64,000 nucleotides of DNA from Diphasiastrum complanatum (taxonomy: Eukaryota > Streptophyta > Lycopodiopsida > Lycopodiales > Lycopodiaceae): positions 20,687,407 to 20,751,406 of the forward strand of contig CM055094.1 in the NCBI GenBank assembly GCA_029204225.1, in the 5' to 3' direction. A program made the translations under genes and the position numbers. Positions 14,640 through 62,471 of the stretch are shown here, in pieces (position 1 is the stretch's first letter; each line of letters starts with the position of its first letter). The notes under the pieces were generated by a model. That model did not search any database. It had not been told where the DNA came from and saw nothing but the letters and a program-made list of their open reading frames with translations.

Positions 14640-15848
14640 TGTGACGATTTTTGTGTAATGTAGCAGATCTCGGTAGCTTAGGGTTTTTTAAAATGGATGA
14701 TAATGGCGCTCCGGATCCGTGGTGGATGTATGTAGATGGTGTCCAAGGATGCGAAGGAGTAATCAAGCACTGTCGTAGCGAATGATAGATCGCCACTAAA
14801 AGATGGAAAATCGATCCTTTGAAGTTATAGCTTTTCAAGGCTTCTGAATTTCATTTCCATGCCTAAAGAAGGAAGTGCCAGCATCAAATCTTCTCCCATC
14901 AGAGTTTGTTTTCATTTTCTAAAAAGCATGCATGGCAGCATGGCAGTAAAGCGTGATATTGTGATTTTTTGTAATGTTTCCATGTATGTGATGATTTTTG
15001 TTGTTTAATTATATCTATGTTGATTGAAACTATGATAGCTTCATGGTTGTCATTCGTAATAGTAAAAGGTTTTTTTCGCCTTATCTTGGGGCAAGTTCAC
15101 AAATAGCAAGGTAACAAATTGGGACTCGGCAAGAACTCACTCCAAATAACTTTTTGAGCTTCACTAACTTATTCTCATGAATTTATCATTGTGTCTAACT
15201 TGCCATATACTAGTTTTATAACTATTTGCTTGATCCTTTACTCTTAAATGCACCATAATGCTACTCCCTTACTGGCCATGACCTCTTCACCGTAGCTCGG
15301 AACTGGGTCATGTTGGGTGTCGTTGAAAAAGCTCTCGTCGAGGGCTTTCTAATGGCAACCTAATCGTCTCTATTTGAGTTGTTATTCAAAAGTTACACTG
15401 TTTTTTAACTGAGTTGCATACTATACTACAAATAAAGTGGCTTATTTACGGGCTGCCCCGACGCAAAATTACAGTTCTTGTGAAAAGATAAGAAAATCCA
15501 TTTGAAGGAGCTATGTTACGTAGATTTCAAATTTGAATGTTTTGATTGGACCATGTGGAAGAAACTTTTGAGAAAAAAAATAAAAGGTATGTTTCTGAAA
15601 GGCCCCTTTTGTGCTCAAATTTTCTGTAATGGTTGATAAGTTGGATTCACATTTACATCATGAAGCAAATAGTCTTGTAAGTTTTCTATTCAAGTGGATC
15701 GGAAGCTCGCTCCAATGGATGTTGAGATTAATATATCATGCTATCTCTAGCCTAACAGCCACACACTAGATGTTTGGATCCAGAAAATATTCACACAAAG
15801 GGACATCACACATCAATATTAATCTACTTTCACCTTTTATTTCGTCAC
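14640..15848. other. Exon-module remnants and a spacer found only in this position
   Basis: 14640-15270 carries broken pieces of the exon-like module (MDDNG-type start near 14693). 15270-15640 is a segment found only here and at 33515-33890. 15640-15848 is spacer DNA leading to orfH, containing the undisrupted copia target site at about 15844-15850. No intact gene. Confidence 0.5.
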
Positions 15849-16059: not shown

Positions 16060-16243
16060 AGATGGCTATGAGTGTGAAAGGGGCATGGATTATTCTTGAC
16101 TTTGAAATGAATGGAGGGCGGTCTTATTCAAGTCACCTAGAGAATGGTCACAAGTTCCCCTTTAAGGATGGGATGCTCTATACATATGACTACAATGCCT
16201 CAACGTCTAACCCGAAATAGTACAAATAGAATGCAATGCATGG

Positions 16244-16288
<45 letters not shown>

Positions 16289-20982: not shown

Positions 20983-21024
20983 ATTTTGGGGCTGATTTTT
21001 TAGATTTGATACTTGCTGTTATAT

Positions 21025-32922: not shown

Positions 32923-34077
32923 CTAGATGTGACGATTTTTGTGTAATGTAGCAGATCTCGGCAGCTTAGGGTTTTTGAAAATGGATGATGATGGCGCTCC
33001 GAATCCGTGGTGGATGTATGTAGATGGTGTCCAAGGATGTGAAGGAGTAATCAAGCACTGTCGTAGCGAATGATAGATCGCCACTAAAAGATGGAAAATC
33101 GATCCTTTGAAGCTATAGCTTTTCAAAGCTTATGAATTCCATTTCCATGCCTGAAGAAGGAAGTGCCAGCATCAAATTTTCTCCCATCAAGTGGCAGCAT
33201 GGCAGTAAAGCGTGATATTGTGATTTTTTGTGATGTTCCCATGTATGTGATGATTTTTGTTGTTTAATTATATTGATGTTGATTGAAACTATGATAGCTT
33301 CGTGGTTGTCATTCGTAATATTAAATGTTTTTTTTCACCTTATCTTGGGGCAAGTTCACAAATAGCAAGGTAACAAATTGGGACTCGGCAAGAACGCACT
33401 CCAAATGACTTTTTGAACTTCACTAACTTATTCTCATGAATTTATCATTGTGTCTAAGTTGCCATATACCAGTTTTATAAGTATTTGCTTGATCCTTTAC
33501 TCTTAAATGCACCATAATGCTACTCCCTTACTGGCCATAACTTTTTCACCGTAGCTCGGAACTGGGTCATGTTGGGTGTCGTTGAAAAAGCTCTCGTCGA
33601 GGCTTTCTAATGGCACCCTAATCGTCTCTATTTGAGTTGCCGTTCAAAAGTTACACTATTTTTTTTGCCGAGTTGCATACTATACTACAAATAAAATGGC
33701 TTATTTACGGGCTGCCCCGAGGCAAAATTACAGTTCTTTTAAAAAGAAAAGAAAATCAATTTGAAGGAGCTACGTTACGTAGATTTCAAATTTGAATGTT
33801 TTGATTGGACCATGTGGAAGAAACTTTTGAGAAAAAAATAAAAGGTATGTTTTTGAAAGGCCCCTTTTGTGCTCAAATTATATGTAATGGTTGATAAGTT
33901 GGATTCACATTTACATCATGAAGCAAATAGTCTTGTAAGTTTTGTGTTCAAGTGGATCGGAAGCTCGCTCCAATGGATGTTGAGATTAATATATCATGCT
34001 ATCTCTAGCCTAAAAGCCACACACTAGATGTTTGGATCCATAAAATATTAATCTACTTTCACCTTTTATTTCGTCAC
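32923..34077. other. Exon-module remnants and spacer in front of the copia insertion
   Basis: The MDDDG frame (near 32982) is present and the MPEEG frame is truncated at about 33190. 33515-33890 is the segment shared only with 15270-15640. No intact gene. Confidence 0.45.
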
Positions 34078-39844: not shown

Positions 39845-41671
<1,827 letters not shown>

Positions 41672-44404: not shown

Positions 44405-45215
44405 CCACTCAAGCCTACATGGCAAACCCACATGGTATAGCTTCGTTGGCTTGCCACACAAGCCTATGTCAAGCCTATATGGCAGACTGCAACATACCAG
44501 CATGAACATACTAGCATCAAGCCTATGTCATGCCTATATGACCTACCACGCAAGCCTATGATAGGCCTACATGGCTTGCCACATGGCAAGTCCCCAGCCT
44601 GTGCGGTTTATCTCATGACATGCCTACATGGCTTGCCACATGGCAACTTGGGTGCCCCAGCTCTCTCTCTCTAGCTCCACTCAAGCCTACATGGTAGAGC
44701 TTGGCTGGCTTGCCACACAAGCCTATGGCAAGCCTATGTGGTATCCTGCGACATGCTTACATGGGAAGCATCAGAAATATGCCATGCCTATGTGGCCTGC
44801 CATGCAAGCCTATGGTTTATCTCATGACATGCCTACATGGCTTGCCACATGGCAACTTGGGAGCCCCAGCTCTCTCTCTCTAGCTCCACTCAAGCCTACA
44901 TGGCAGAGCTTGGTTTGCTTGCCACACAAGCCTATGGCAAGCCTATATGCTAGCCTGTGGCATGCTTACGTAGGAAGCATCAGAAACATGCCATGCCTAT
45001 GTGGCCTGCCACGCAAGCCTATGGTAGGCCTGTGTGGTTTGCCAAGTGGCATCTTTTGAGCCCACCTATATATATATATATATAGATCTCTAGGTCCACT
45101 CAAGCCTACGTGGCACAGGGCCCAGTTGGCTTGACATACAAGGTTATGGTAGGCCTACATGGCTTGCCACATGGCAACCCTCAAGCCTGCATGATTTGCC
45201 ATGTGGCATACCACT
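44401..45215. repeat. Four tandem units of about 210 bp rich in CCACATGG-type motifs
   Basis: Each unit starts with a short CT or TA run, then a variant of CTCCACTCAAGCCTACATGG (about 44400, 44660, 44870, 45084). Within units the near-palindromes GCCACATGGC and CCTACATGGC recur many times. Units 1 and 3 of the higher-order repeat keep only the last of these. Dense short motifs near the end of a block resemble the subterminal repeats of some DNA transposons, but I find no clear terminal inverted repeats. Confidence 0.65.
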
Positions 45216-45602
45216 GTCATAGGTGTTTCGAAACCTCATGACAAGAAGCATGTCCTTGGGCATCAGTGTCACGCTCTTGCCATGAATGGAACACAAAATC
45301 GAATCCTCAAACAATTTTATCTGGAAGTCCTCGTATACAATATGGAGGGCCTCCAATGCAGCGATATTCCACCTCACTGCATAGGGAAGATGCGTGGTCA
45401 TATCTTGTGTAACCTCCCTCACAGCCCGGTACAAGGCTGCTTTTAGGATCACAAGTTTGGTGTACCTCTTCAAGGCCCTGATGTCCCTCAACCATGGACG
45501 GCGAGGTCTTCCGCGTCTTTGTAGACATATGGGTTCAGATGTCTGGGGACGGGATGGTTGAACAAAATGGGTAAGCCTAGCAGTTTGCTTCGTCCGAGCC
45601 AT
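45144..45602 (-). CDS. Histone H3 variant, CENH3-like, embedded in transposon repeat
   Basis: The ATG at 45602 opens MARTKQTAR, identical to the H3 start. After a tail of about 37 residues with no equivalents of K9, K27 or K36 come an alpha-N/alpha-1 region (LRDIRALKRY then AVREVTQD) that aligns to H3 without gaps, and a loop 1 about four residues longer than in H3 with an RW pair as in plant CENH3. Then follow FEDSILCSIH, SVTLMPKD and a degraded C-terminus. By eye, 36 of 76 aligned histone-fold positions outside loop 1 match canonical H3. The last 20 or so of the 152 codons come from transposon repeat DNA (compare 21093-21160), so the original C-terminus is replaced. No introns, unlike most plant CENH3 genes, suggesting a retrocopy. 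Expression is unknown. Confidence 0.75.
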   Translation of the reverse strand: MARTKQTARLTHFVQPSRPQTSEPICLQRRGRPRRPWLRDIRALKRYTKLVILKAALYRAVREVTQDMTTHLPYAVRWNIAALEALHIVYEDFQIKLFEDSILCSIHGKSVTLMPKDMLLVMRFRNTYDSGMPHGKSCRLEGCHVASHVGLP

Positions 45603-45952: not shown

Positions 45953-46319
45953 CACGTGTGAATCCCAGCGACACGTGGCTCAGTCAGTAGCTGACATGTG
46001 GAACCACACGTGTGTATACGCATGTGTGAAACTGCATGTCTGGATCAACATGTGTGGGATCCCATGTGGGGACACGTGGCCGAATGGATCAGCGACATGT
46101 GTTCTTGCACGTATTGGCTCGCATGTGTGGTCACGTGGCCCAATCAGTAACTGAAGTGTGGGACCACACTTCTGTATCCGCACGTGTGAAACTTGCACAT
46201 GTGGCCATGTGGTTGAATGGTTTCGTGACATGTGTTCTGGCACGTGTAAGCTCGCACGTGTGGGCACGTGGCCGAATGGCAGATTGACGTGTATTGTAGC
46301 ACGTGTGGTCTCACACGTG
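45953..46319 (-). promoter_or_regulatory. G-box array, 11 CACGTG motifs in 367 bp
   Basis: I count eleven perfect CACGTG hexamers, mostly as CACGTGTG or CACGTGGC, plus many CATGTG variants, in a degenerate repeat with TGGCCGAATGG phrases. CACGTG is the plant G-box bound by bZIP and bHLH factors, and CACGTGGC is also ABRE-like. Position next to a TATA-like box suggests an upstream activating region for the minus-strand gene; strand assignment is inferred. Confidence 0.6.
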
Positions 46320-46421
46320 TGGACGGTTGTATTACGTGCCATATATCTGATCCGTTGTTGGATCGACGAGTGTACGACTTGGGTTTTATTGGTTTTAGCT
46401 ATATAAATGTTGTTTGATCAG

Positions 46422-47642
46422 TTAAAACATTTCGCTATGTTTTGGATTTTCACTCCCTGTAGCTCTTGGTGTGTGAACCAAATACCATTCCACCTTAAAA
46501 TCACCTATTCTGTGTTGCTCATATGATTCAGATCTACAAACATATTGTTGGTAGAATCAAATGACAAAGTGCCATGTTTTGAGTTATAAATTTCATTGAT
46601 ATGTTAAGGAATACCAATGATGTTTTGCAAGCCCCTGTTTTACACATCCCTCTCTAATTTGATTTGAAAGGGCCAGGTGATAGGAAATTGTTTTATATGT
46701 ACTTGTCCAAATGCCTCTTTGATAATTTTAAACATTGTGTCATATGCATCCCTGCTAATACCAGAATAATCACATGCTCCTTGTATCAATTTTCGATCAA
46801 TGGTCTTGCCGACTTCGCCCATAAGGGCCTCTGCAATCTTGGGCTTGATTCGAGAATATCGTTGATTTCCAAGTAGAGTCGTCGTTGACTTGGCTGTAAG
46901 TACTGCACTCAAGGACTTTCCAATCATGTCCTTGTCTTTCGGATTTTCATTGGTGACTAAAGCTGCTCTGCAAAATAAAAAAAAGATTTAGAAAAAACCA
47001 ATTCATAACCATTGATGTGCTAGATGAAACAAAACACATGAATAGTTTAAAACATAATCCTACTTGAAAGCATATATTCTTTTTTTTCCGTTGACCCCCA
47101 CTTGTTGAGAGCTCGTCAATACTTTTTAAAATAACTCTTTTTCCTTATTGTTCAGTATTTTCTTCCGTAATGTGTTTACTTCTACATTTATTTGACAATA
47201 TGAGGTACACAATGTTTGTACAATTAGTTTCATATTGTCAGTTTCTTGGTTGAGGTTTAATATAATATCTTGCAAACGAGAACTATCTATCTTTAAGATT
47301 TCATTTTCGTCTTTTGTTTGCAAAAAAAAGTTTCTTTTTCTCGGTAGTCAGTAAGAAAACCATTCAACATATTTTCCAAATAGTGGATTTTTTTCATTGA
47401 ATAACTAATGCCATAACTTTTCAATCTTTCACAACAACCCAATAGACTATTGTGTCCTTCACACAAAAACAGTATGAGTTGTGTGACTGATCTAAAATTT
47501 GGATGTTGCATTGAGCTTGGATCGATTGGATACAAACTTCCATCAACCCATAGATCACAATGTTTCCTGTCTTTCATCCTTTGGTGAGCTGGTAAGGTAG
47601 ATCCTTCAGATTTTTTCTCGACAGTGGAGCATATTCTGTGGA
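46422..47642 (-). pseudogene. orfC copy 2, N-terminally truncated
   Basis: Spliced minus-strand gene of unknown family. The first coding part includes KHCDLWVDGSLYPIDPSSMQ and a K-K-I-H-Y-L-E-N motif. The second is rich in Q, N and leucine (coiled-coil-like, QDIILNLNQETDNMKLIV). A 96-bp intron (46968-47063) with GT and TTTTGCAG ends follows, then an exon with RYSRIKPKIAEALMGEVGK and CDYSGISRDAYDTMFKII. A 16-bp loss near 46514 shifts the frame before the C-terminus VEWYLVHTPRATG (stop 46422). Between parts 1 and 2 the frame shifts within a T-run, in both complete copies. Confidence 0.55.
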
Positions 47643-47934
47643 AAGATCAATATGGACATGATAACTATTTTAAGAGAATTGAACTCAGACCTATAATAAC
47701 AAAACAATATTAGCTTAAAACACAAAACCATTAATTCTCGAGATGAATTAGTTGCTAGTACTCAATAGAATAGATTTAAACCTGGAAAGCTGCCAACCAC
47801 CAAATATTATTTTCGGACTGCACACTGAAATTAAGACTCTCCGAGTTTATCGTATTGCTAATTGTTCCATTCATAAGTATAACACTAACCCTTTCAATTT
47901 CGTTTGTGATTCCATAAAACTTTATAATAAATCT
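47643..47934. other. Joint between tandem orfC copies
   Basis: The sequence after 47660 is not seen elsewhere in the window. It contains an open plus frame (47752-47982) with no recognisable meaning. Confidence 0.4.
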
Positions 47935-49091
47935 CTACAAATGATTCAGATCTACAAACATATTGTTGGTAGAATCATATGACAAAGTGCCATGTTTTGA
48001 GTTATGAATTTCATTGATATGGTAAGGAATATCAATGATGTTTTGAAAATTCTTGTTTAACACATCCCTCTCTAATTTGATTTGAAAGGGCCGGGGAATA
48101 GAAAATTGTTTTATATGTACTTGTCCAAATGCCTCTTTGATAATTTTAAACATTGTGTCATATGCATCCCTGCTAATACCAGAATAATCACATGCTCCTT
48201 GTATCAATTTTCGGTCAATGATCTTGCCGACTTCACCCATAAGGGCCTCTGCAATCTTGGGCTCGATTCGAGAATATCGTTGACTTCCAAATAGACTCGT
48301 CGTTGACTTGGCTGTAAGTATTGCACTCAAAGACTTTCCAATCATGTCCTTGTCTTTCGGATTTTTATTGGTGACTAAAGCTGCTCTGCAAAATACAAAT
48401 AAGATTTAGAAAGAAACAATTCACAACCATTGATGTGCTAGATGAAACAAAACACATGATTAGTTTAAAACGTAATCCTACTTGAAAGCATATATTCCTT
48501 TTTTCCGTTGACCCCCACTTGTTGAGAGCTCGTCAATACTTTTTAAAATAACTCTTTTTTGCTTATTGTTCAGTATTTTCTTCCGAAATGTGTTTACTTC
48601 TACATTTATTTGACAATATGAGGTACACAATGTTTGTACAATTAGTTTCATATTGTCAAGTTCTTGGTTGAGGTTCAATATAATATCTTGCAAACAAGAA
48701 TTATCTATCTTCAAGATTTCATTTTCTTCTTTTGTTTGCAACAAAAAATTGATTTTTCTCGGTAGTCAGTAAGCAAACCATTCAACATATTTTCCAAATA
48801 GTGGATTTTTTTCATTGAATAACTAATGCCATAACTTTTCAATCTTTCACAATAACCCAATAGACTATTGTGTCCTTCACACAAACACAGTATGAGTTGT
48901 GTGACTGATCTAAAATTTGGATGTTGCATTGAGCTTGGATTGATTGGATACAAACTTCCATCAACCCATAGATCACAATGTTTCCTATCTTTCGTCCTTT
49001 GGTGAGCTGGTAAGGTGGATCCTATCAGATTTTTTCTCGACAGTGGAGCATATTCTGTGGAAAGATCAATATGGAGATGATATTTAGACAT
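47935..49091 (-). pseudogene. orfC copy 3, most complete N-terminus
   Basis: ATG at 49091 (MSKYHLHIDLSTEYAPLSRK). The intron is at 48386-48481 (96 bp, same size as copy 2), and splicing restores the phase exactly (lysine codon split AA|A). The C-terminus is cut: an ATG found in the other copies is TTG followed by TAG at 47935. About 350 residues would be encoded if the T-run frameshift near 48735 is bridged. It is unknown whether that shift is decay, a sequencing effect or a recoding site; both copies share it. Confidence 0.55.
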
Positions 49092-49162
49092 CTTAATAAT
49101 CAATAGATTAATCTAGTAGAAAACCTGCTTGTTATATATCTTGTAAGCTATTAAAACTAGTC

Positions 49163-49447
49163 TTAATTATAAAAAAAAAATAATTGGAAAAGTTTGAAAT
49201 GACCTTGGCCCTCTTTTTGATCCATCACACTCCATGTTTCTTGCTTTATATGCAAAATCAAAGCTTTGCAGTTATGAGCAAAATAAGCAAAATATTTTTT
49301 CAATACATGTGTGTTGAAATTGCAAATTTTTGAATTGCAAAAATTTGAGATAACCTTGCCACTCCATTTGATCCAACACACTCCGTATCTTCTGAATTTC
49401 AAAAATTCAGATTCACGTTGGCGCTCATTGTGATCCAAAATAGTCAA
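49163..49447 (-). pseudogene. orfB copy 3
   Basis: The longest version (MTILDHNERQRESEFLKF start), with a short duplication AAAAATTCAGATTC near 49405 that opens the N-terminus. Confidence 0.3.
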
Positions 49448-49564
49448 AGTTTCTTGCCATGATTTGCAGATCGATAAGGCTGTTTTTCTTTGATGTGAAC
49501 GCTTTAGTAGATGGAAAGAAAACTTTGATGTGCAATACGATTTGCATTTACATGAGAAGTCATG

Positions 49565-50191
49565 TTAGTTAATGGTAGAAAATAGAATCTTGAAGTATGG
49601 ACACCACGCGTTGCGGCTACCCAACTTCCAGTTAACTACATACGTTACTAGTGAGGTCAAGTCATCGGAGTTGTGCGGGCAGACCAAAAACTCAGTCGGA
49701 GTTTTAAAATTCGACGATTTTCTCTCTCTTACGTGGCATTTCTTAGACAGCCCTTTTGGGCCATGGAACTCCTCGAATGTAAACTCCATATTATTTGAGT
49801 CTGTTTCATCTGATGAAGCATGACGCTTGGCTTGTATCGATCCTTCGTCTGTGACATAGAGTACATGGGTGTCTTTCTCGATGTAAGCTTCAATAGGTCG
49901 ACCGTTTGGTGCTTTGCAGTTGGCCCTTGTGGAGAGAAGGAACTCTTTCTCTTTTGAGAAGCCGCTTGCGTGGAATCTGTTGCAATAGGCCTGGAAGTAG
50001 AGTTGGTATTCTTGGCCGGTTCTGAGGGAGTCTCCCAAGCTTTTATCTGCTAGCATCAAGTGGTCTCAAAATCGAGGTCAGTGGCTCAACTGTTGCAAAG
50101 TGACATCTATCAGAAGATAGCCCAATAATGTATTGAGGTCAGCTCCAGAAATAGGGATGATATAAACAAAATTTTGGTTAGGAGGTAACAT
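49565..50191 (-). pseudogene. orfA copy 5, with extra internal segment
   Basis: The frame 50059-49565 (164 codons) includes about 125 bp at 49662-49788 that the other copies lack, and stays open through it (FEEFHGPKGLSKKCHVRERK). The N-terminal part is deleted between about 50130 and 50160; the original ATG is at 50191. The extra piece has no GT-AG ends, so it looks like ancestral sequence lost elsewhere, not an intron. Confidence 0.45.
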
Positions 50192-50514
50192 GAACTAGAA
50201 AATTTGTTGGTGTGGTCATAAGCAATATGCAATCGAAATGGGCTCTGATAGTCACTGATCAATAGAGGAAGTTGGAACTCTATGTGGCTCAGGAACTAGT
50301 GTGCCTCATGGTACCAAGTGTTCATCTCATAGATATCGAGGCTTTCCATGGTGATGTCAATTCTATCTTGAGTTGGGTCATCAGAACAGAAAGATGTTGT
50401 GGCAGACAGGTTCTGGACTTGGCTGATGACTCTGTTGAAGGTTCGGCTCTGGTAACAGACAAGTGGAGTCTCGGCTCGGTCGACTGTGGAGGGCTTCGGA
50501 TCGGTCGTCTTTGG

Positions 50515-50690
50515 ATGGACTCGGCTCAGTCAACTTTGTATGCAGAGTATGGAAGCTCAGCGCAGTCCAGAGTGAATGCAGAGTATGGACGCTTGGCTCG
50601 GTCCACAGTGATTGCAGAGCATGGGGGCTAGGCTCCCTGAGCAGTGTATGTAGAGTATTGCTCGGCAGTGTATGGAGACTAGAAATTTGT
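50515..50690. repeat. 36-bp minisatellite, 4 units
   Basis: Lies in the plus frame 50272-50631. Several units carry private substitutions (AGCTCAGCGCAGTCC). Confidence 0.7.
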
Positions 50691-50739
50691 GGAAAACTTT
50701 GGAGCAATGTTGCTCTGATAGGATGTGGAAACGATGATT

Positions 50740-51339
50740 ATTGCATGATGATTCAACTGATCTTGTAGGAATGATTTGAAGAGGCATATTTATGTGCATA
50801 TGATTCCTTTTGGTTCAGGTTAGGTCATAATTTAAAAAATATTGTTCTTGATACAAGAATTGTAATTTAAAACACATATAAAATTTTTAAAAATAATTTA
50901 AAAACTTTTGTTTTAATAAGCAAAAAGTTTTTTTTTAGTTATTCTAATGGTTGTCTCCAATGATTTCATTTTGAATAGTATTATTATATCATATAAGCTA
51001 ATGTGCATTTATCAATAAAAATCTATTAACAAAATTTTAGTAGCTTGATTAATTTTCTTCCAGAATACAACATTTTTTTTAGCATTACAATATCTTTATT
51101 TGAAGCATTTTAGATATGGATATTTTTTTTAAAAAATTAAAAAAAAATGGGTCTCCATGTCATTTCTTTTTTTTGGGATCATCGTGTTTCATGATGAACA
51201 ATCTTAGTAAATTCTTCCCTGGTGCATCCTTCCAAAATTAGATGAATGGCTTTTTTCTTTGGCTACACAAGCTCGCCAGAGATGTTGTCAAGTCACACAT
51301 ACTTTTCTCTTTTTACGCCAGCACATGATTGATTTGTTG
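50740..51339. other. Deletion joint and AT-rich DNA
   Basis: About 85 bp of spacer (exon-like stretch ending TTCAGGTTAGG) joins straight to AT-rich DNA near 50825. No gene except the MMNNLSKFFPGA reading near 51194. Confidence 0.5.
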
Positions 51340-51640
51340 CAAACCCTTCTGCTAAACTCCTTGCCAACTTAGGAGATGCTGAAAACATCAGAGAGATTGA
51401 ACGCCTCCTCAAAAGACCACGTTTTTTCACTGTCCAAGATAAATTCTTCCAAAACTCAAATGAAAGGCCTGGTTCTTTCAACCTAAACAACCCTAGTTCG
51501 GTGGTTTATGGACGAAATATGGGAAAAAGAAAGAAGTATACATGATATAAAGGGAAGGAAGGACAAGGCAATGGTGCAAAAGAAGACTTACTGGATAAAA
51601 GACTGAGCTTTTACAGGTATTAACTAGCTCGTAGGATGAC
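51340..51640 (+). pseudogene. NPSAK module, copy 4
   Basis: Near-identical to 6690-6990 and, like it, joined to the gypsy protease, so this joint existed before the copies separated. Confidence 0.35.
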
Positions 51641-52438
51641 GAGGATCTGCATTAGTCTCTCCATAAATAGAGACTATCTGGTAAAACTTATCTCTAAATA
51701 CAATAGTATGGTTTTTAAAATCTATTTTCAACGAATCTGATTTATCAAAAAACCATTCATATCCTAGGATTACATAAGTTCTAGCAAGATTCATAACATG
51801 GAAGTCGAGCTGCTCAACATGATCTTGCATCCGAACCTCCAAATTAGGGACTTTCACATCCCAAACTTCTGTGTCTGACCCTGAGGCTAGAGGACCACAT
51901 AATGTTGATCACGGGCACCCGAAGCTTCTATACAAGCCGCACATTCAAAAGGTTGTGAGTACCTCCAAAATCAAACATTATACCTAAGTCTTTCCCTAGA
52001 ATATTGCCTTTAACTTGAAACCATTGATTAGACTTGAAAGAAAGTGTACTGAAGTTACAAGTATATTCACAACCATTTAACAAATCAACTTTCAATTCAC
52101 AACCATTTAACAAATCGACTTTCAATTTACCTGTCGGTAAATCCATCGCCATGAAACTTGATGATTTATTTTCCCTCTCGGATCTCTCTTTGGCATGATG
52201 CCCAAGTTTGTTGGCAAGCAGTAGCTTCTAGTTCATCAAAAAATAGATTTTTTATCTTATTATTTTTTGGTTTTTCATTCTTAGGCTTTTGGGCTGATTG
52301 GCTGTGCATTCTCTTCCGTGAGGCAATCACGGTGCTATCGTAGGCTTTAGCTACTCGGATAGGATCTTTCAATATGGAGGACATTCCCTTTGCACTCCTT
52401 TTGGTAATCGGCTGACAATCCATACTATGAATTGCCAC
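51624..52438 (-). pseudogene. Ty3/gypsy gag end and protease remnant, copy 2
   Basis: Nearly the same as 6973-7787, including the inactivating FDFGGTHN site and the KVDLLNGC duplication. Confidence 0.7.
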
Positions 52439-53059
52439 TGTGCCAATTTCGAATCAAGTGACCCTTAAGTGATTATTAGAAGCCTTTTTCAAATGGAAAA
52501 AAATAGCATACACCTCTAAAAGGATACGGTTGCTAGGTCTACAAAGTACTCAACAAAAATTGCTTTTTCTTTTAAGGCTTTCAATTGCCTTAACCCAAAA
52601 AAGTAAATAGGGAAAAAGTAATGGCAAACCTGAATGCAATAAAGGAACTTCTAAAATCCCTATTTAAGAGCAAAAAATCCAAAATCCCCCCCCCCCCCCC
52701 CCCCCAAATTAATATAACTAGTAACATTATTCTCAAAGCATATACGATGAGCTACAAACAACACTTGGAGAGTAGAAAATTAGGAATCTGTCAAATACTC
52801 TTGCATCTAGTATTTGGAAAGTTAGACATAACGATAGTATCATAAGAATGAGTTAGAGAAGCTTGTGAAGCCATCCAGAGGTGTGTTGTTGTTTTATTAG
52901 TTGCCTAGATACATATCAAGCTACCCCAAGTTACCACAGATCTATTATATGAGTTAAACACGGGTCTATATGAGGCACGGTGTATATATTGCAAAAAGCG
53001 AAAAGGAAGGTCTCCCCTTTTATTATATTGTGTACAACCGATAGTTGGGTTAAAGGTAA
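52439..53059. other. Poly-C tract and RT downstream region
   Basis: A C-run of about 19 lies at 52687-52705. 52720-53040 is the direct copy of the RT 3' region. No gene. Confidence 0.55.
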
Positions 53060-53755
53060 TTGTAATATTCAGGACAGTTCACCAAATTACATGTGTTGTC
53101 GTTTCCGTCTATCTAAAGGTATTCCAGGGGATAGATCCAAAAAGGATTGTCAGGTGTTCTTGGTCGAGTCTTGTTTAGGAAACGTCCAACCGTATGATTA
53201 TTGATAAAGCATATATCGTCAATGTACCTGAACGAATATTTGAAGTCGTTTATAAATTTAATCTGCCCTAATCTTGCAAGCCTCTTAATAAACTGCAGTT
53301 TCAAAAAAAGAAAGGCACCAGTTATAAGACATTGGTCAATGTGAAAAGCCCATTGGTATTCCCCCGACCTGTCGCCAAGTATGATCCTCAAGTCTAATAA
53401 TGCAATTGTCTATCAAATAGGAATTCCAAATGCATAAGGTATTCTTGCGGTCTATAGTACTCCATTCGTATGAACCTGTATTTTTCGAAACCCATTTAAA
53501 ATCATTGGTTCCAGATATTCATTTGTATTTGAGCAATTTGATTTTGGCGATTTTAAATGCCGAACAAATCATTTTAGTCATAATAGTTTTCAAATCGTCA
53601 ATCCCGTTCAAAGGAATATTGCTTTTTTGGGGGTAACCTAATTCTTTGCTTGCTGGTGTTTTGAGTTTGTAATGCAATTTTAGGCTGAAATTTTCAGCAC
53701 ACAAGGCTTGTAGGAGGGGGAGTTCCTGCATCCATCTAATGTGTGGTTTTGACAC
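53060..53755 (-). pseudogene. Reverse transcriptase, copy 2 (decayed)
   Basis: The frame is broken by stops after KLLKYK (near 53519), within the GIPMG region and after WIYPLEYL. The catalytic FRYIDDICF box remains. Substitutions relative to 20125-20982 are scattered. Confidence 0.6.
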
Positions 53756-53802
53756 ATTTTGGTGCTGATTTTTTAGATTTGATACTTGCTATTTTTTGTG
53801 TC

Positions 53803-53824
53803 TTTTAGGGCACATTTAGGGTTT
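53803..53824. other. Two telomere-like TTTAGGG units
   Basis: TTTTAGGGCACATTTAGGG occurs just upstream (minus sense) of the RT. Two units could be chance; endonuclease-deficient Penelope-like elements are known to sit at telomeric repeats, which is why it is noted. Confidence 0.2.
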
Positions 53825-53877
53825 GAAAAAGTTTATTTTCTTGGCTAGTTTTTATGGCAAGAGATTTGAGCCCACCT

Positions 53878-54285
53878 ATATATATATATATAGATCTCTA
53901 GGTCCACTCAAGCCTACGTGGCACAGGGCCCAGTTGACTTGACATACAAGCTTATGGTAGGCCTACATGGCTCGCCACATGGCAACCCTCAAGCCTGCAT
54001 GATTTGCCGTGTGGTAGACCTACATGGCTTGCCATGTGGTAGTGTGCGATAGGCTTTGCAAATAGCAGACCACATAGGCAGAGTCTGGTTAGCTTGCCAG
54101 CCTATGATGGGCCTACGTGGCTTGCCACATGGCTAGCCCCAAGCCTGCATGATTTGCCACATGGTAGTCATACGTGACTTGACACGTGGGCACCTGTGAC
54201 AGCCTTGGTCAATCGCAGGCCTATGTGGCCTGCTACACAAGTCTATGGTAGGCCATGTGGTAAACCACACAAGACTATGGTAGGA
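53878..54285. repeat. CCACATGG-type repeat region, unit 3
   Basis: One full and several partial copies of the motif repeat of 44401-45215, read through to 54300. It occupies the place of the histone-like ORF relative to the promoter cassette. Confidence 0.5.
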
Positions 54286-54357
54286 CTATGTGGTTGTAGT
54301 TGTAGCCTCAACTCGTCGTATGTTGACCTTTCTGAAATCCCTGGAATCACCGGCCAT
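54286..54357 (-). other. Short ORF after the promoter cassette, 23 codons
   Basis: The ATG at 54357 reads MAGDSRDFRKVNIRRVEA then threonines and a stop in repeat DNA. It may be the stub of a second cargo. The ATG lies only about 23 bp from the TATA-like box, so it is unlikely to be the translation start from that box. Confidence 0.25.
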
Positions 54358-54401
54358 TGTACAATCCCCGGGAATGGACTTATATAGGAGAAAAAAGTTG
54401 G

Positions 54402-54751
54402 CACGTGTGAATCCCAGTGACACGTGGCCCAGTTAGTAGTTGACATGTGGAACCACACGTTTGTATACGCATGTGTGAAACTGCACGTCTGGATCAACAC
54501 GTGTGGGATCTCATGTGGGTACACGTGGCCGAATGGATCCACGTATCGGCTCGCACGTGTGGTCACGTGGCCCAATCAATACTTGACGTGTGGGACCACA
54601 CTTTTGTATCCGCATGTGTGAAACTTGCACATGTGACCATGTGGTCGAATGGTTTGGTGACGTGTGTTCTGGCATGTGTTAGCTCGCACGTGTGGGCAGA
54701 TGGCCGAATGGCAGATTGACGTGTATTGTAGCACGTGTGGTCTCACACGTG
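54402..54751 (-). promoter_or_regulatory. G-box array, second copy, 9 CACGTG motifs
   Basis: Same array and order as 45953-46319 with a deletion near 54540 and several CACGTG sites mutated to CACGTT, CATGTG or CAGATG. The TATA-like box is at 54380-54388. Confidence 0.6.
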
Positions 54752-54853
54752 TGGACGGTTGTATTACGCGCCATAGATCTGATCCGCTGTTGGATCGACG
54801 AGTGTACGGCTTGGGTTTTATTGGTTTTAGCTATGTAAATGTTGTTTGATCAG

Positions 54854-55170
54854 TTAAAACATTTTGCTAAGTTTTGGATTTTCACTCCCTGTAGCTCTTG
54901 GTGTGTGAACCGAATACCATTCCACCTTAAAATCACCTATTCTAGGAACATTGAGTGGTGTGTCGCTCATATGATTCTTAATTATCTCTGGATATTCTGT
55001 TTTACTAAAAATCCAAAATAGAATTTCATGCTCTTCTTTAAAACCTGTTTGAAACTTGTTTCCTGTCTTTCGTCCTTTGGTGAGCTGGTAAGGTGGATCC
55101 TTTCAGATTTTTTCTCGACAGTGGAGCATATTCTGTGGGAAGATCAATATGGAGATGATATTTAGACATC
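54854..55170 (-). pseudogene. orfC copy 4, internally deleted
   Basis: As copy 1 at 21346: N-terminal MSKYHLHIDLPTEYAPLSRK, an alternative middle (HEILFWIFSKTEYPEIIKNH) and C-terminal VEWYSVHTPRATG ending at 54854. The last exon is open for at least 75 codons. Confidence 0.5.
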
Positions 55171-55209
55171 TTAATAATCGATAGATTAATCTAGTAGAAA
55201 ACCAACTTG

Positions 55210-55497
55210 TTATATATGCTGTAAGCTATTAAAACTCGTCTTAATTATAAAAAAAATTAATTGGAAAAGTTTGAAATGACCTTGGTGCTCTTTTTGATCC
55301 ATCACACTCCAAGTTTCTTGCTTTATATGCAAAATCAAAGCTTTGCAGTTATGAGCAAAATAAGCAAAATATTTTTTCAATAGTGTGTGTTGAAATTGCA
55401 AATTTCTAAATTGCAAAAGTTTGAAATAAACTTTTCGCTCCATTTGATCCAACACACTCGGTATTTTCTGAATTTCAAGATTCACGTTGGCGCTCAT
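55210..55497 (-). pseudogene. orfB copy 4
   Basis: Same module; a two-base loss (near 55384) changes the middle of the frame. Confidence 0.3.
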
Positions 55498-55635
55498 TGT
55501 GAGCCAAAATATTCAAAGTTTCTTGCCATGATTTTCAGATTGATAAGACTGTTTTTTCTTTGATGTGAACTTTTTGAGTAGATGGAAAGAAAACTTTGAT
55601 GTGCAATACGATTTGCATTTACATGAGAAGTTATG

Positions 55636-56539
55636 TTAGTTAATGGTAGAAAATAGAATCTTGAAGTATGGACCCCACACGTTGCGGCTATCCAACTTCC
55701 AGTTAACTACAGACGTTACTAGTGAGGTCAAGCTCCATATCATCTGAGTCTGTTTCATCTGATGAAGCATGACGCTTCGTTCGTATCTTGGCCCTTTGCC
55801 TGGATTGTTGTGTTGGTGGTGGTTGGACAAGTGTGGTCGTGTCTTCATGTTGAGCAAAAGACTCTTCAGCAGAATGATCCTTCATTTGTGGGTGTCTTTC
55901 TCGATGTAAGCTTCACTAGGCCAACCGTTTGGTGCTTTGCAGTTGGCCCTTGTGGAGAGAAGGAACTCTTTCTCTTTTGAGAAGCCGCTTGTGTTGAATC
56001 TGTTGCAATAGGCTTGGAAGTAGAGTTGGTATTCTTGGCTGGTTCTAAGGGAGTCTCCCAAGCTTTTATCTGCTAGCATCAAGTGGTCTCGAACTCGAGG
56101 TCGGTGGCTCAATTGCTACAATGACATCTATCAGAAGATAGCCCAATAATTGGAGGTTTGCTTGTTCTTGATATAGTCATGGAGGCAGTTGGAATCAAAT
56201 TGGGCCCAATCATAAAGGTTCTGATCATGTAGTCTAGAATCAACCATCATGTGGAATAGTTTCATGGGGATACGCATGATCTTGGACCTATAGCGCTATG
56301 TATATTTCGTTAGATAGGCGCATGGAGCAGCTAAGGGCTTATCATTTATGACCTCGATACGGTAACCATCCTTTTTTCCATTTGTCCACTGTGGGGTCTA
56401 TGTATTTGAAGTATGCTGTGGATTCAATCTTTTTGAGGGTCCTGTTGACTGTGTTTGGTCCCCTAGGGAAGCCAAATGTATTGAGGTCAGCCCCAGAAAT
56501 AGGGATAGTATAAACAAAATTTTGGTTAGGAGGTAACAT
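55636..56539 (-). pseudogene. orfA copy 6
   Basis: ATG at 56539. The frame is interrupted near 56342 (K-run) and at the TAG shared with copies 1 and 3; the C-terminal part is open at 55882-56112 and 55703-55885 in different frames. Confidence 0.4.
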
Positions 56540-56785
56540 GACTTGGAAAATCTGTCGGTGTGGTTATAGGCAATATGCAATAGAAATGGGCTCTGATAGC
56601 CACTGAAAAGAGGAAGTTGGAACTCTGTGTGGCTCAGGAACTAGTGTGCCTCCTGGTACCAAGTGTTCATCTCAGAGATATCGAGGCTTTCCATGGTGAT
56701 GTCAATTATGTCTTGAGTTGGGTCATCAGAACAAGAAGATGTTGTGGCATACATGTTTTGGACTCAGCTGATGACTTTGTGTAAT

Positions 56786-57125
56786 GATGGCACTCTGGAT
56801 TCGTGGTGGATGTATGTAGATGGTGTCCAAGGATGCAAAGGAGTAATCAAGCACGGTCGTAGCGAATGATAGATCGCCACTAAAAGATGGAAAATTGATC
56901 CTTTGAAGCTATGGCTTTTCAAAGCGTCTGAATTCCATTTCCATGCTTGAAGAAGGAAGTGCCAGCATCAAATCTTCTCCCATCAGAGTTTGTTTTCATT
57001 TCCTAAAAAGCATGCATGGCAGCATGGCAATAAAGCATGATATTGTGACTTTTTGTAATGTTCTGCAACATTTGCTTACATACATAGCTACACCAAATGA
57101 GAAAATTAAGGACCTAGATTCTTAA
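56786..57125 (+). pseudogene. Exon-like module of unidentified gene, copy 5, first part
   Basis: The MDDDG start is lost in a deletion that also removed the minisatellite (joint near 56782). The following small frame is open (56943-57125, TTG in place of ATG) and reads EEGSASIKSSPIRVCFHFLK. Confidence 0.4.
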
Positions 57126-57290
57126 AGAGTTTTATGAGGTTGAAATTCTAGTTCATTGCTTAAAATTCAACTGATCTTGTAGGAATGATTTGAAGAGGCA
57201 TATTTATGTGCATATGATTCCTTTTGGTTCAGGTTAGGTGAATCCTATATCCTTTTGAAGTCGAGATCAAGGAGGAGGCAGTCGAGATCA

Positions 57291-57672
57291 ATGAATGCAT
57301 ATCTTTTGGATTCACATGATAGATTGAATGCTTCTAATTATTCAATTTGGAAGCTAAGAATGGAACCAATCCTTATTTTACAAGATCTAATGGATATAGC
57401 GAGTGGCGAAGAGGATGAGCCTATTCATCCTCAAGAAGCTACAAAATACAAAAGGAGGTGCAAGGTTGCTCTCCATTGTATAAAATGAATGTAGCTCATG
57501 AGCTTCTTAAGGAGGTAGGAGCTTGCATCTTGGCTCAAGAATCATGGGAAACTCTTCAAAAGATATATGAATCCAAGAATACTTCAAGGTTGATATCCTT
57601 GAAGAATCAAATCCATATGTGCTGAGAGTCAAGGACTTAAACAAAGAGCTTGCTCACATAGGAGATTCCATT
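57291..57672 (+). pseudogene. Copia gag fragment, copy 3 (truncated)
   Basis: Same MNAYLLDSHDRLNASNYSIW start and same one-base loss (stop at 57488). It is cut at about 57672 and joined back to the exon module, with short duplicated sequence at the joint (GAGTTTTATGAGGTTGAA). Confidence 0.75.
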
Positions 57673-57781
57673 ACGGAGTTTTATGAGGTTGAAGTTCTAG
57701 TTTTTCTATAAAACATCTTCCTCTGAAAGTTTCTTTTTGGTGGAAATGATGCTATTTATACCAAGTGTATGCTAATTTATA

Positions 57782-57940
57782 ATGGCAAAGATCGAGTTCA
57801 CAGCTCACCATGATTATGATCATTTGCAAGTAGCCTATTATAAGCAAATTATGCTGCACTTTCGTGTTATCTTAGCACATTTGAATGTAGCTTGTGATTT
57901 ATTGGTTCAATATTCTAGCAGCTTTTTTGCACCATTTAAG
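57782..57940 (+). pseudogene. Best-preserved exon of the unidentified gene
   Basis: 53 codons from ATG (MAKIEFTAHHDYDHLQVAYY) to AAG, followed at 57941 by a textbook donor GTAAGA. This is the only copy without the GATATTATT frameshift. The next exon (58024-58098) follows in the same phase after 83 bp. No family is recognised. Confidence 0.45.
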
Positions 57941-58023
57941 GTAAGAGAAAGAGACAATCAAATAATGATGCAATAGGTTCTAGAAAATTGTAAATTTGTT
58001 GTTCCGGTATCTCCAATTTCTAG

Positions 58024-58098
58024 GAATTTGGGCATGAAGACAATTCGGCTCGAATCATGCACAGAAAAATTGATGAGTGTTTGCCATCTTGTTTGCAT
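58024..58098 (+). pseudogene. Next exon of the unidentified gene
   Basis: 25 codons (EFGHEDNSARIMHRKIDECL and on) between acceptor TTTCTAG and donor GTATGT, phase 0 on both sides. Joined to 57782-57940 it gives 78 continuous codons. The intron is 83 bp, normal for plants. Confidence 0.4.
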
Positions 58099-59399
58099 GT
58101 ATGTGATGATTTTTGTTGTTTAATTATATCGATCTCTATTGAAACTATGATAGCTTCGTGGTTGTCATTCGTAATATTAAAAGTTTTTTTTCACCTTATC
58201 TTGGGGCAAGTTCACAAATAGCAAGGTAACAAATTGTGACTCGGCAAGAACTCACTCCAAATGACTTTTTGAGCTTCACTAACTTGTTCTCATGAATTTC
58301 TCATTGTGTCTAACTTGCCATATACCAGTTTTATAAGTATTTGCTTGATCCTTTACTCTTAAATGCGCCATAATGGTACCCCCCTTTGCATGTGCCATAG
58401 TCCTAGAGCTCTAAAATTAACAATGTATACACATGTATGGAAGTTTTCAAGACATACTGATGTTTTTGCATCCACTTGTCTTTAAGCTTAAACATGTTCT
58501 TTGTAGTTCCTGAAGAAGTCTTGAAAGTTTGAAGCTTGTGTGTTAAGCCAAGTGTTGTTGTAGTTCATCGTAGATGCTTGGAGTTGATTATTGGCCACCT
58601 CCAAGGACATAGCCTTGAAAAAATTTGTCTAGCCCCCTTCATTTCTTAACGCTTGCTTCTTGTACAACCAAATTACCTTCCAATTTTTTCAAGCCTATTT
58701 GTGGTAAAGTGTCTCACATCTCAATGGAACATATGCACAAAAGTGAATCACTTTCTGCCACGTGATGATTGTGATACATTGTGCATTAGGGAATCACATT
58801 GTTGATAAGTTGGATTCACATTTACATCATGAAGCAAATAGTCTTGTAAAATTCGTGTTCAAGTGGATCGGAAGCTCGCTCCAATGGATGTTGAGATTAA
58901 TACATCATGCTATCTCTAGCCTAATAGCCACACACTAGATGTTTGGATCCAGAAAATATTCACACAAAGGGACATAGGTCTACCACGTAGGTCTGCCACG
59001 TAGTTTTCAATCAATCAAAGGGAAGGTAGATCCTTATCTTTGGTACTATAATAGTTAGTTCTTAGACTTATTGAGATCTTAGAAATTAAATTTTAGGGTC
59101 AGCTCAAAGTTTTTGACAAGTGCTCATCAAGTGAATGCAATTCTAGTCAAGATTGTGTTCAATTTTGCTTGATTTGTGAATAGTTTGGATTGATTATTAC
59201 TTGATGATTCAACTGATCTTGTAGGAATGATTTGAAGAGGCATATTTATGTGCATATGATTCCTTTTGGTTCAGGTTAGGTGAATTCTATATCCTTGTGA
59301 AGTCGAGATCAAAGAGGAGGCAGTTCTAGATCCAATTTTTATGCAAATTCAAGTAGTTTCCATTCTTGTTAACATTAATAGATATGATTTGGCTTAAGA
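58099..59399. other. Spacer module, copy 6
   Basis: Colinear with 2760-4075. No gene apart from the stretch between TTGTAG and GTTAGG near 59221-59275. Confidence 0.45.
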
Positions 59400-60393
59400 T
59401 TGGGTAGGTTCTTATTGAGAGGTCAAGTTTTGAGCTTTCTCAAGTCCCTAGGTAGTGGGATATCTAGTCTTTCAATCATTTCTATTTTGCATCTATTCAA
59501 GAAGAAGCAAACTCAATGTCAAGCAAATCTTGGTCAAGAGGAAGAGGAGAGCTCTCATGAAGATTTTGTCATGATGCCAAGTTTCTCTTCTTCAAGCATA
59601 AGAGGTGAAGACCCTTGGTGGATAGATAGTGGGGCTAGCTCCCACATGACAAGTAAGAGGGAGTATTTTTCAACCTTATCTACCTATGAAGGACCCATCA
59701 AGTCAATTTTTACAGCAATTAATTATGCTTGTAAGATAGAAGGAATAGGATCCATACCTTTATGCTTGGGATTTTCAAGGAAAATCAAGATTGATGGAGT
59801 CCTTTACATTTCTAGTATCACTAAGAACTTGCTTAGTGTAGGACAATTGCTTGACAATGGTTTGATTGTGGAGTTCGCCACAAATACATGTAACATCAAG
59901 AAGGATGGCAAGATCATTGCTAAAGGCATAAGGTTTGGAAGATTGTTCAAACTAGATGCCTATGTGGATGCTAATGTTGTGATGCTAGCCAAGGAGACCA
60001 AGCTATCCAACCATATTCTACGGCACAAAAGACTTGGCCACATCAACTCAAAATCCATGGAGATCATGTGCAAGGAGGAGCTTGCCTCAGGACTTCCAAG
60101 ATCCTTAGCAAAGTTTATATGATGTTCCAACTCTCTACAATGACAACATTTCAGTCCAACACCTTGCAACCAACCCAATCTTCCTTGCAAGACCAAAACA
60201 TATCGAGATCTCTCATCATTTTGTGTCAGAGAAGGTGCAATCTAAGGAGATATCTTTGGAGCATGTGGCAAGTAGTGAATGTATTGCTGATATCCTCACT
60301 AAACCACTTCAAAGAGCTGCATTTGTGAAGTTAAGGTCAGCCCTAGGGTTGATAGCAATTCTATGTTATCTTCAAACTAGTTGTGAGGAGGAG
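59400..60393 (+). pseudogene. Gutted Ty1/copia fragment, copy 3
   Basis: A 240-codon frame with the leader (SLSIISILHLF), protease and pre-integrase parts, then the RNase H end (SSECIADILTKPLQ in another frame) and the purine tract just before 60394. Same deletion as copies 1 and 2. Confidence 0.85.
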
Positions 60394-60890
60394 TGTTAAA
60401 TTTACACAAGCTAGTTTGCATAAATTCCACTTGTAAATGACTTTGAGGCCATGATGTGAGATGTCAAACATGCCAGAAGCATAGGATACCTTATTCTAAG
60501 TCAAATTATTAACCTAGCTTTGGAATGGTACCTTTGGAATGTGTCCAAAGAGTGCATAGATAGGGTAGAAAGAAAGTAGGAGCTTAAAATAGCAGTTTTT
60601 GCATTGTTTTTGGTTCTCGAGGTATCGACCCTAAATAGGGTGGATCAACTGGATCTTTAGATTGGATGTTAGGGTTAGGTTGTGATGATTACATAGAAAC
60701 CGTAATACGCTCAAATTCGAACTCTACATGTATAAATATGTGATGGGATTTCCATCCAATTATGAACAAACTTGAGAGTTTCCTTCTTGACTAGTTTGAG
60801 TCTATGATTTGACTGATGAATGCTATTGGCTTATGATTTTTTATGATCATTGAATGAGATTGGAGTTGCAGGTACAGTACGCAGGTAGCA
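60394..60890 (+). repeat. 3' LTR of gutted copia, copy 3 (right end approximate)
   Basis: Starts TGTTAAATTTACAC. Small differences from the copies at 5011 and 26037. No 5' partner. Confidence 0.6.
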
Positions 60891-60949
60891 GCAAGCCGTA
60901 CATCCACATGTGTGAAGAGTTTTGGAGATAATTTATTGGAAAACTGGGT

Positions 60950-61069
60950 AATAAAGGAGAGTTTGTTGATGTCTTAGTTCAGGACTATAATGTGGTTGCA
61001 GTTGTCAAGGAAATTGTGGAAGAGATGCCATTTGACACTGCAATGGCTCCTCAAAAAAAAAAAATGTAA
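60950..61069 (+). pseudogene. Exon-like 3' end of an unidentified gene
   Basis: 39 codons plus stop: NKGEFVDVLVQDYNVVAVV, then EEMPFDTAMAP and a basic end KKKM. It is damaged in unit 1 (near 5733-5845) and deleted in unit 2. Likely the last coding exon of a captured gene; no upstream exon is recognised. Confidence 0.3.
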
Positions 61070-61957
61070 ATGATCTTGATGATTTATGGGAGTAATAAAT
61101 TCTCTTTTATTTTAGAAAGCAATTGCGTTTATATTTCTTGAAATATTGTGTATTGAAATCTTTTTGATTAATTTAATGTTTTTAAATTTGTTTGTATTAA
61201 AAATATAGATTTAGCAATTTTTTAATGATTTAAATATTAGCAAAACTAAAATTGCAACGAACTGTCAGGTTTCTAATATTTTAATTTTTCATTGTGTTTT
61301 TATAAGAAGTTTTTAGAAATAATTTCATTTGCAATCATTTAATGTTTAAATATAAGTAAAGATTTAAATACTGACTAAAATATTGTCATAATTTAAAAAA
61401 TATTTTTCTTGATACAAGAATTGTAATTTAAAACACTTTTAAAATTTTTAAAAAAACATTGAAAACTTTTGTTTTAAAAAGCAAAAAGATTTTTTTTAGT
61501 TATTCTAATGGTTGTGTCCAATGATTTTATTTTAAATAGTATTATTATTTCATTCAAGCTAATTTGCAATTATTAACAAAAATCTATTAACAAAATTTAA
61601 GTAGGTTGATTAATTTTCTTACAAAATACAACATTTTTTTTAGCATTACAATATCTTTATTTGAAGCATTTTAAATATGGGTATTTTTTTTATAAAATTA
61701 AAAAAAAAAGCGACAAAAAAAAAAAAGGGTTTGCATGTCATTTCTTTTTGTTTTGGGTCATCGTGTTTCATGATGAACAATCTTAGTAAATTCTTCCCTG
61801 GTGCATTCTTCCAAAATCAGATGAATGACTTTTTTCTTTGGCTACACAAGCTCACCAGAGATGTTGTCAAGTCACACCTACTTTTCTCTTTTTACGCCAG
61901 CACATGATTGATTTGTTGCAAACCCTTCTGCTAAACTTCTGCTTAGGGTTTTTGAAA
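61070..61957. other. AT-rich DNA and joint to exon module
   Basis: AT-rich as in the other units. The NPSAK module begins (near 61910) but is cut after about 30 bp and joined to the exon module near 61940. Confidence 0.5.
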
Positions 61958-61958
61958 A

Positions 61959-62306
61959 TGGATGATGATGGCGCTCTGGATCCATGGTGGATGTATGTAG
62001 ATGGTGTCCAAGGATGCGAAGGAGTAATCAAGCATGGTCGTAGCAAATGATAGATCTCCACTAAAATATGAAAAATCAATCCTTTGAAGCTATAGCTTTT
62101 CAAAGCTTCTGAATTCCATTTCCATGCCTGAAGAAGAAAGTGCCAGCATCAAATCTTCTCCCATCAAAGTTTGTTTGCATTTCCTAAATTGCATGCATGG
62201 CAGCATGGCAGTAAAGCATGATATTGTGACTTTTTGTAATGTTCTGCATCATTTGCTTACATACATAGCTACACCAAATGAGAAAATTAAGGACCAAGAT
62301 TCTTAA
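61959..62306 (+). pseudogene. Exon-like module of unidentified gene, copy 6
   Basis: Both small ATG frames are open: MDDDGALDPWWMYVDGVQGC from about 61959, and MPEEESASIKSSPIKVCLHF at 62124-62306. The MAKIEF exon is deleted; the joint runs straight to the copia gag. Confidence 0.4.
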
Positions 62307-62471
62307 AGAGTTTTATGAGGTTGAAATTCTAGTTCATTGCTTAAAATTCAACTGATCTTGTAGGAATGATTTGAAGAGGCATATTTATGTGCATATGATT
62401 CCTTTTGGTTCAGGTTAGGTGAATCCTATATCCTTGTGAAGTCGAGATCAAGGAGGAGGCAGTCGAGATCA

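Follow-up and report, generated by a model that had tools for sequence, protein, structure and literature searches.

An H3-like histone gene carried by DNA transposons with terminal inverted repeats in the lycophyte Diphasiastrum complanatum

Introduction

The CMCT clade of DNA transposons comprises EnSpm/CACTA, Plavaka, ESTA, Lanisha and Transib, and its members duplicate a target site of 2-5 bp, as described in PMC12730594. Spy elements, which possess terminal inverted repeats (TIRs), insert without duplication and prefer the sequence AAATTT (PMC4482050). In plants, VANDAL DNA transposons carry an accessory gene, VANC, which encodes a DNA-binding protein, and VANC proteins act via clusters of a short motif in the non-coding DNA of the elements (PMC5735166). 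Transposon-encoded proteins of the SET, TET/JBP and VANC types have been named as counter-silencing genes, and in fungi TET/JBP genes are found in several lineages of DNA transposons (PMC12730594).

Here we describe elements of D. complanatum, grouped in three lineages (I, II and III), which carry a gene for an H3-like histone alongside a gene designated T and, in lineages I and II, genes designated B and D. The elements of lineages I and II share 5'-CA...TG-3' ends with the CMCT clade, and to the eye T resembles the clade in its acidic residues, which enclose C(2)C and H(4)H (PMC12730594); similarly, the PlavakaB ends CATCA..TGATG resemble the CATTA..TAATG of our elements. Unlike the CMCT clade, the present elements carry an H3-like gene, show no target-site duplication at the proven insertion site, and encode a T protein without a profile match to any transposase. 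Insertion without duplication is shared with Spy, whereas the insertion sites differ from the Spy preference, and our elements are 8.7-10 kb long with four genes in lineages I and II. They are like VANDAL in being plant DNA transposons that carry an accessory gene and contain clustered short motifs outside their coding sequence, but the putative counterpart of the DNA-binding VANC protein would be a histone. As in the fungal TET/JBP transposons, a gene related to chromatin or methylation occurs in several transposon lineages, although the fungal elements carry an enzyme and those described here a component of the nucleosome. The likeness to plant CENH3 consists of the H3 fold, a longer loop 1, the residues RW (lineage I) and P at the position of H3 R63 in most of the aligned rows; unlike plant CENH3, the gene is multi-copy and mobile, and has a long C-terminal extension in lineages I and II. 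No report of a transposon-encoded histone H3 was found in the open-licence papers searched.

Results

The H3-like open reading frame of the window

The stretch of DNA analysed, hereafter the window, comprises 64,000 nucleotides (contig CM055094.1, positions 20,687,407 to 20,751,406). An earlier reading of the sequence alone had proposed that it contains a CENH3-like histone gene as cargo of transposon-type repeats in an array of retroelements. The open reading frame (ORF) in question is composed as follows:

45144..45602, minus strand: H3-like ORF of 152 codons, with a short tail, a histone fold and about 24 repeat-derived last codons
45147..45214, minus strand: repeat-derived end of the ORF, lying past the point where the lineage-I gene is cut off; similarity to the dispersed loci L039-L041 ends at 45215

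The predicted protein matched the Pfam family Histone over residues 11-124 (E=1.3e-16), and its best PDB match was at 2.3e-18; 173 distinct chains reached E<=0.001, and all 60 of those listed were of the H3 type. These scores indicate that the similarity to histones is not due to chance and that the ORF encodes a clear H3 fold. The description given by the sequence-only reading was confirmed in the following details: the N-terminus is MARTKQTAR, an exact H3 start, and the alignment to host H3 shows a gap-free alpha-1, a loop 1 with four more residues, and the motifs VRW (including the RW pair), FEDSILCSIH and VTLMPKD. The C-terminus had rightly been called repeat-derived, as can be seen from the point at which the similarity to L039-L041 ends; these dispersed relatives run some 180-230 residues past the truncation, and the window copy is without their C-terminal extension. 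Moreover, the position of H3 R116 is occupied by S in the window copy (KRV -> KSV), compared to R in 18/18 other transposon rows.

Three lineages of related genes

The genome (1.74 Gb) was searched for the Histone family, with 150 scored of 6325 first-look candidates; here and below, the number of such candidates is a rough count that should not be taken as a copy number. There were 13 canonical H3 matches at 164-165 bits; below these, the matches listed scored 82.8-109.5 bits and lie on many contigs, in open frames of 95-417 aa. Five dispersed 10-kb loci were read, and their H3-like ORFs lie inside repeated multi-gene DNA. Lineage I, to which the window copy belongs, is represented by stop-to-stop frames of 382 (L039), 330 (L040) and 336 aa (L041), consisting of tail, fold and C-terminal extension. 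Lineage II (L043) has a 331-aa frame starting with MDKRKQT. Lineage III (L042) has a proline-rich N-terminal part unlike the H3 tail and a fold whose end is much like H3. A long polyproline stretch, the length of which differs among copies, precedes the lineage-III protein (L042:4476-5117).

Further genomic copies, which the earlier reading had suggested looking for, were thus found in lineages I, II and III. For lineage II, 122 copies were scored of 9630 candidates (81-100% identical), and for lineage III, 185 matches were obtained from 150 scored of 29937 candidates; the scored copies of both lineages are spread across large contigs. At least one in-frame stop occurs in 100 of the 122 lineage-II copies, 22 rows being open. 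By hand count, the stops in these 122 rows are 162 TAG, 19 TAA and 11 TGA, and the excess of TAG would fit CAG -> TAG decay at methylated CHG sites.

Element ends and insertion

Two lineage-II copies, located on contigs C7 and C5, were read with their flanks. Between their ends the aligned pieces are 94.7-96.4% identical, and outside them the flanks gave no match reaching 1e-10. The two copies are 8681 and 9245 bp in size, respectively, and terminate in inverted repeats of 35 bp, which are perfect in C7 and mismatched at one position in C5. The ends of lineages I and II read 5'-CATTA...TAATG-3'. The core of the lineage-II TIR, with <=2 mismatches, was found 1013 times in forward and 1051 times in reverse orientation (reversed-pattern control, 0), a count of ends that includes deletion derivatives; CATTA precedes it in 17/20 lineage-II ends, which were picked for an exact core and two of which share a flank. 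One pair of lineage-II TIRs lies 2.6 kb apart (G000:C1:47860007-47862588) and is likely an internally deleted derivative.

A lineage-II copy on contig C2 (L043) is inserted in a Copia element. As 8/8 Copia paralogues are uninterrupted and join the flanks exactly, the insert is CATTAG...CTAATG without a target-site duplication. Both ends were also read in five further elements, three of which were put together from the position and type of their ends. Four of the five lack a duplication of >=2 bp, and the fifth has a 3-bp match. The ends of lineage I were located on contig C8, the left one at L093:1689 and the right one near L041:8637, roughly 10 kb away, and differ from each other at 7/31 positions; with <=3 mismatches the left end has 168+183 matches in the genome (control, 0). 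TIRs of lineage III, looked for in L042 and L094, were not found.

The proposal that a histone is transposon cargo was borne out far beyond the locus by the many copies, the defined ends, the clean insertion and the constraint on the fold in lineages II and III (see below). The carrier was, however, misnamed as a retroelement array: the gene belongs to a TIR DNA transposon, with Copia fragments as neighbours. Carriage by an LTR retroelement is ruled out by the TIRs, the clean insertion and the location of one copy itself inside Copia.

Genes carried by the elements

Gene order was compared by tblastx with the lineage-II copy of C5. Genes T, B, H3-like and D have the same order and orientation in lineages I and II. 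In lineage III, L042 gave matches to T, the H3-like gene and part of B, with T inverted relative to the other two genes, and no match to gene D was obtained there. When the 122 lineage-II H3 copies listed were compared to 150 T exons (scored of 9697 candidates), at least 19 pairs within 15 kb had T on the strand of H3 and upstream of it, against about 0.3 expected, and no pair had another arrangement. The corresponding comparison for lineage I, between 76 exact left ends and 56 dispersed H3 copies, gave 11 pairs in the expected order and 1 otherwise.

The unspliced frames of T contain by eye, in this order, LDESE, GDLK...CLYC, HILRDH and GMEKSHW; they can be read as D, D with C(2)C, H(4)H and E, and on this visual reading we call T transposase-like. 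Apart from Histone, no Pfam match over the cut-off was found in the element ORFs scanned, so that T has no profile support. A piece of gene D in L043 has a TnsA-like Pfam match at 0.003, under the cut-off.

The pieces of lineages I and II contain 9-16 ACACGT/ACGTGT sites (overlaps counted), mostly between B and the H3-like gene; 100 first-order Markov resamplings gave means of 1.3-2.2 and maxima of 4-6. No such excess was seen in lineage III L042 (7 sites; mean 2.0, maximum 9). The CACGTG-type cluster could equally well be a plain promoter or serve VANC-like targeting, and it is considered here as a lead only.

The window copy

Read leftwards from 49779, the window copy has the left TIR, the 5' part of T to 47663 and a second, partial 5' segment of T to 46523; there the T core and gene B are skipped, and a CACGTG-rich spacer, the H3-like gene to 45215 and repeat DNA follow. 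The later transposase exons are missing. The following features were assigned:

49734..49779, minus strand: left TIR and subterminal sequence of a lineage-I element
47663..49733, minus strand: 5' part of the transposase-like gene T, holding ORF 47935-48405
46523..47663, minus strand: second, partial copy of the T 5' part, holding ORF 46640-46927
46478..46523, minus strand: internal deletion junction (L041:525 -> L041:3887), with the transposase core and gene B absent
45959..46325, no strand: ACACGT/ACGTGT cluster in the spacer adjoining the H3-like gene, 12 sites, compared to a mean of 1.3 and a maximum of 5 in 100 first-order Markov resamplings
33849..33889, minus strand: right-end-like TIR remnant, 8/31 mismatches to the lineage-I right end
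15591..15631, minus strand: right-end-like TIR remnant, 6/31 mismatches to the lineage-I right end

A search with the window protein scored 150 of 7560 first-look candidates, and the best 89 matches are all located on C3 (18.5-21.8 and 29.9-30.2 Mb) or C14 (49.4-49.9 Mb). In-frame stops were counted by hand in 38 of these 89 array copies. The pooled dN/dS of 29 of 30 fetched copies (L038 was dropped for length) was 0.36 for the tail, 0.35 for the fold and 0.34 for the repeat-derived end, all three values being lowered by the choice of copies by protein score; constraint specific to the fold, judged against the repeat-derived end, was not found in this C3/C14 array. Considering the stops in the array copies, the loss of the T exons and of the C-terminal extension, and the KSV substitution, the window copy, a truncated, internally deleted and non-autonomous relic, is most likely inactive.

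Copia-type fragments surround the H3-like gene within the same mosaic array. Positions 1-34000 and 48979-64000 of the window form a direct-repeat mosaic with a spacing of about 18 kb, containing Copia-type gag/protease frames and transposon fragments. A 297-aa frame at 20125-21018 (minus strand) shows by eye a reverse-transcriptase-like FRYIDD motif, with no Pfam match. A duplicated frame is present at 16141-16863 and 40352-41671 (plus strand); the latter copy internally repeats its own unit and has no Pfam match over the cut-off.

Selection on the histone gene

Eight genes of lineage II and ten of lineage III entered the dN/dS analysis; most had been selected because their frames were open, and three have a stop. 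Pairs outside pS 0.08-0.6 were dropped, leaving 22/28 (II) and 34/45 (III). The median dN/dS of the fold was 0.15 (II) and 0.18 (III), and 0.13 and 0.14, respectively, in the 12 most diverged pairs; the way in which copies entered this set, through their protein score and mostly with open frames, lowers dN. The N-terminal parts gave 0.30 (II) and 0.29 (III), and the C-terminal extension of lineage II gave 0.40. Since dS of the lineage-II fold exceeded that of the extension, CpG decay was suspected and the test was repeated with CpG contexts masked. The 0-fold/4-fold ratio of the fold was then 0.39 (II) and 0.31 (III), that of the extension 0.68, and transversions alone gave 0.27 (II) and 0.11 (III) for the fold. 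These ratios indicate purifying selection on the histone fold between diverged copies of lineages II and III.

Among nine close lineage-II copies, private and shared changes reached 0.64 and 0.70 of the neutral expectation over the gene (fold, 0.39 and 0.60); this comparison gave no signal of selection and could not tell branches under selection from those in decay. For lineage I, limited early comparisons gave a fold dN/dS of 0.5-1.1. The gene did not turn out to be an ordinary H3 retropseudogene lacking other copies, the outcome named beforehand as refuting, yet the window copy does look like a decaying relic. A lone H3 retropseudogene is ruled out by copy number, divergence, fold constraint and membership in a multi-gene element.

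Relationship to H3 and CENH3

Among 19 transposon rows, H113, K115, V117 and T118 are kept in all 19, R116, D123 and R129 in 18, R83 and K122 in 17 and R69 in 15, whereas R72, F84, C110 and R128 vary; P replaces R63 in 14. The conserved positions (H113, K115, R116, V117, T118, D123, R129, R83 and K122) are nucleosome-contact positions. The tails of lineages I and II start with MARxKQT or MDxRKQT and then diverge, and in these tails the earlier claim that K9, K27 and K36 contexts are absent held for K9 and K27.

In a tree of 24 folds, four of whose reference sequences were provisional, each lineage forms one clade, lineages I and II group together at 93/91, and all transposon rows at 71/53. The transposon rows group with plant CENH3 at 92/91, a split that was not starred and depends on provisional references; with the same references, neither a grouping of the transposon rows with host H3 (p-AU 0.062) nor one of lineage III with host H3 (p-AU 0.071) was rejected. 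An earlier FastTree run placed plant CENH3 with host H3 and CENP-A (0.655). The designation of the gene as centromere-type thus finds weak support in the first grouping and is weakened by the second.

The back-translated pattern A[KR]RVT[IL]MxKD, applied for host CENH3, gave 448+471 genome matches (e.g. G000:C1:5269336, C1:29232616 and C1:18086666) and none with the reversed control, so that host CENH3 was not singled out. As lineages I-III mostly misfit this pattern, further H3-like families probably exist. Non-canonical matches to a host-H3 query were mostly 44-57% identical, a few of exon length reaching 81-95%. The 13 canonical H3 genes (C11, C5 and C23) are intronless, and 8/8 of those read have A31 and Y41. 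The residue F41 of H3.1 first appears in ferns (PMC5809374); host H3 with A31 and Y41 would fit an H3.1 type older than ferns, as in a lycophyte or moss.

Discussion

The window ORF is very probably a truncated copy of an H3-like gene belonging to TIR DNA transposons. Given its presence in three diverged lineages and the constraint on its fold in lineages II and III, the gene most likely has a function in the element. Its carriage by many element copies across the genome suggests that the transposons encode a DNA-packaging protein of their own. As a whole, the explanation that we favour, at close to an even chance, is that of a transposon-borne H3-like gene acting as an anti-silencing histone. 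The protein would pair with host H4 and enter nucleosomes, preferably on the element itself. With a tail that keeps the KQT start but has no K9 or K27 contexts (lineages I and II), the resulting chromatin may resist H3K9 and H3K27 silencing and so keep the element expressible. Targeting might, at a guess, run via the C-terminal extension or the CACGTG cluster adjoining the gene. This anti-silencing mechanism is put forward tentatively.

The joint presence of T and the H3-like gene in three lineages, in fixed order, and the conservation of the C-terminal extension between lineages I and II could also be explained by a transposition cofactor, which would package or bend element DNA, or tether the transposase to chromatin, without protecting against silencing. 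We consider this unlikely, the extension being less constrained than the fold (dN/dS 0.40 vs 0.15 in lineage II).

Transposons capture host genes, and a functionless host fragment that is simply carried along would agree with the neutral appearance of the close copies and of the C3/C14 array, as well as with the stops in 100/122 lineage-II copies. Its retention in three diverged lineages, the fold constraint in II and III and the kept contact residues argue against such a fragment and render it more doubtful still.

A histone derived from CENH3 that marks the surroundings of the element as centromere-like, or biases segregation, appears improbable. The longer loop 1, the RW pair in lineage I, P at R63 in 14/19 rows and the tree split at 92/91 point towards it; against it stand the unrejected grouping with host H3 (p-AU 0.062), the provisional references and the spread of lineage-II and -III copies over large contigs.

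Some viruses carry histones, and multi-gene elements whose tested proteins have no Pfam match over the cut-off except Histone might be remnants of endogenous DNA viruses in which the histone once served the virus, but short TIRs, clean insertion, about 2000 ends and tested ORFs without a match to a capsid or polymerase make this very improbable. Nor did two IMG/VR scans, with six peptide patterns each for the T piece and the lineage-II H3-like protein, find a relative among the contigs, and no match to a viral hallmark gene was seen in the scanned ORFs.

Returning to the anti-silencing histone, enzymes and binding proteins that counter silencing are already known in transposons, and a histone retained by the elements would achieve this more directly. 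It is possible, though on balance doubtful, that plant DNA transposons encode their own nucleosomal H3, build their own chromatin and carry a chromatin state along with them, the gene being kept through at least three diverged lineages; hundreds of further H3-like sequences may represent additional ones. Transposon histones would offer many natural H3 variants for probing tail and core residues. For genome annotation, the finding means that transposon copies would lead to a gross overestimate of the number of H3 or CENH3 genes in genomes of this kind.
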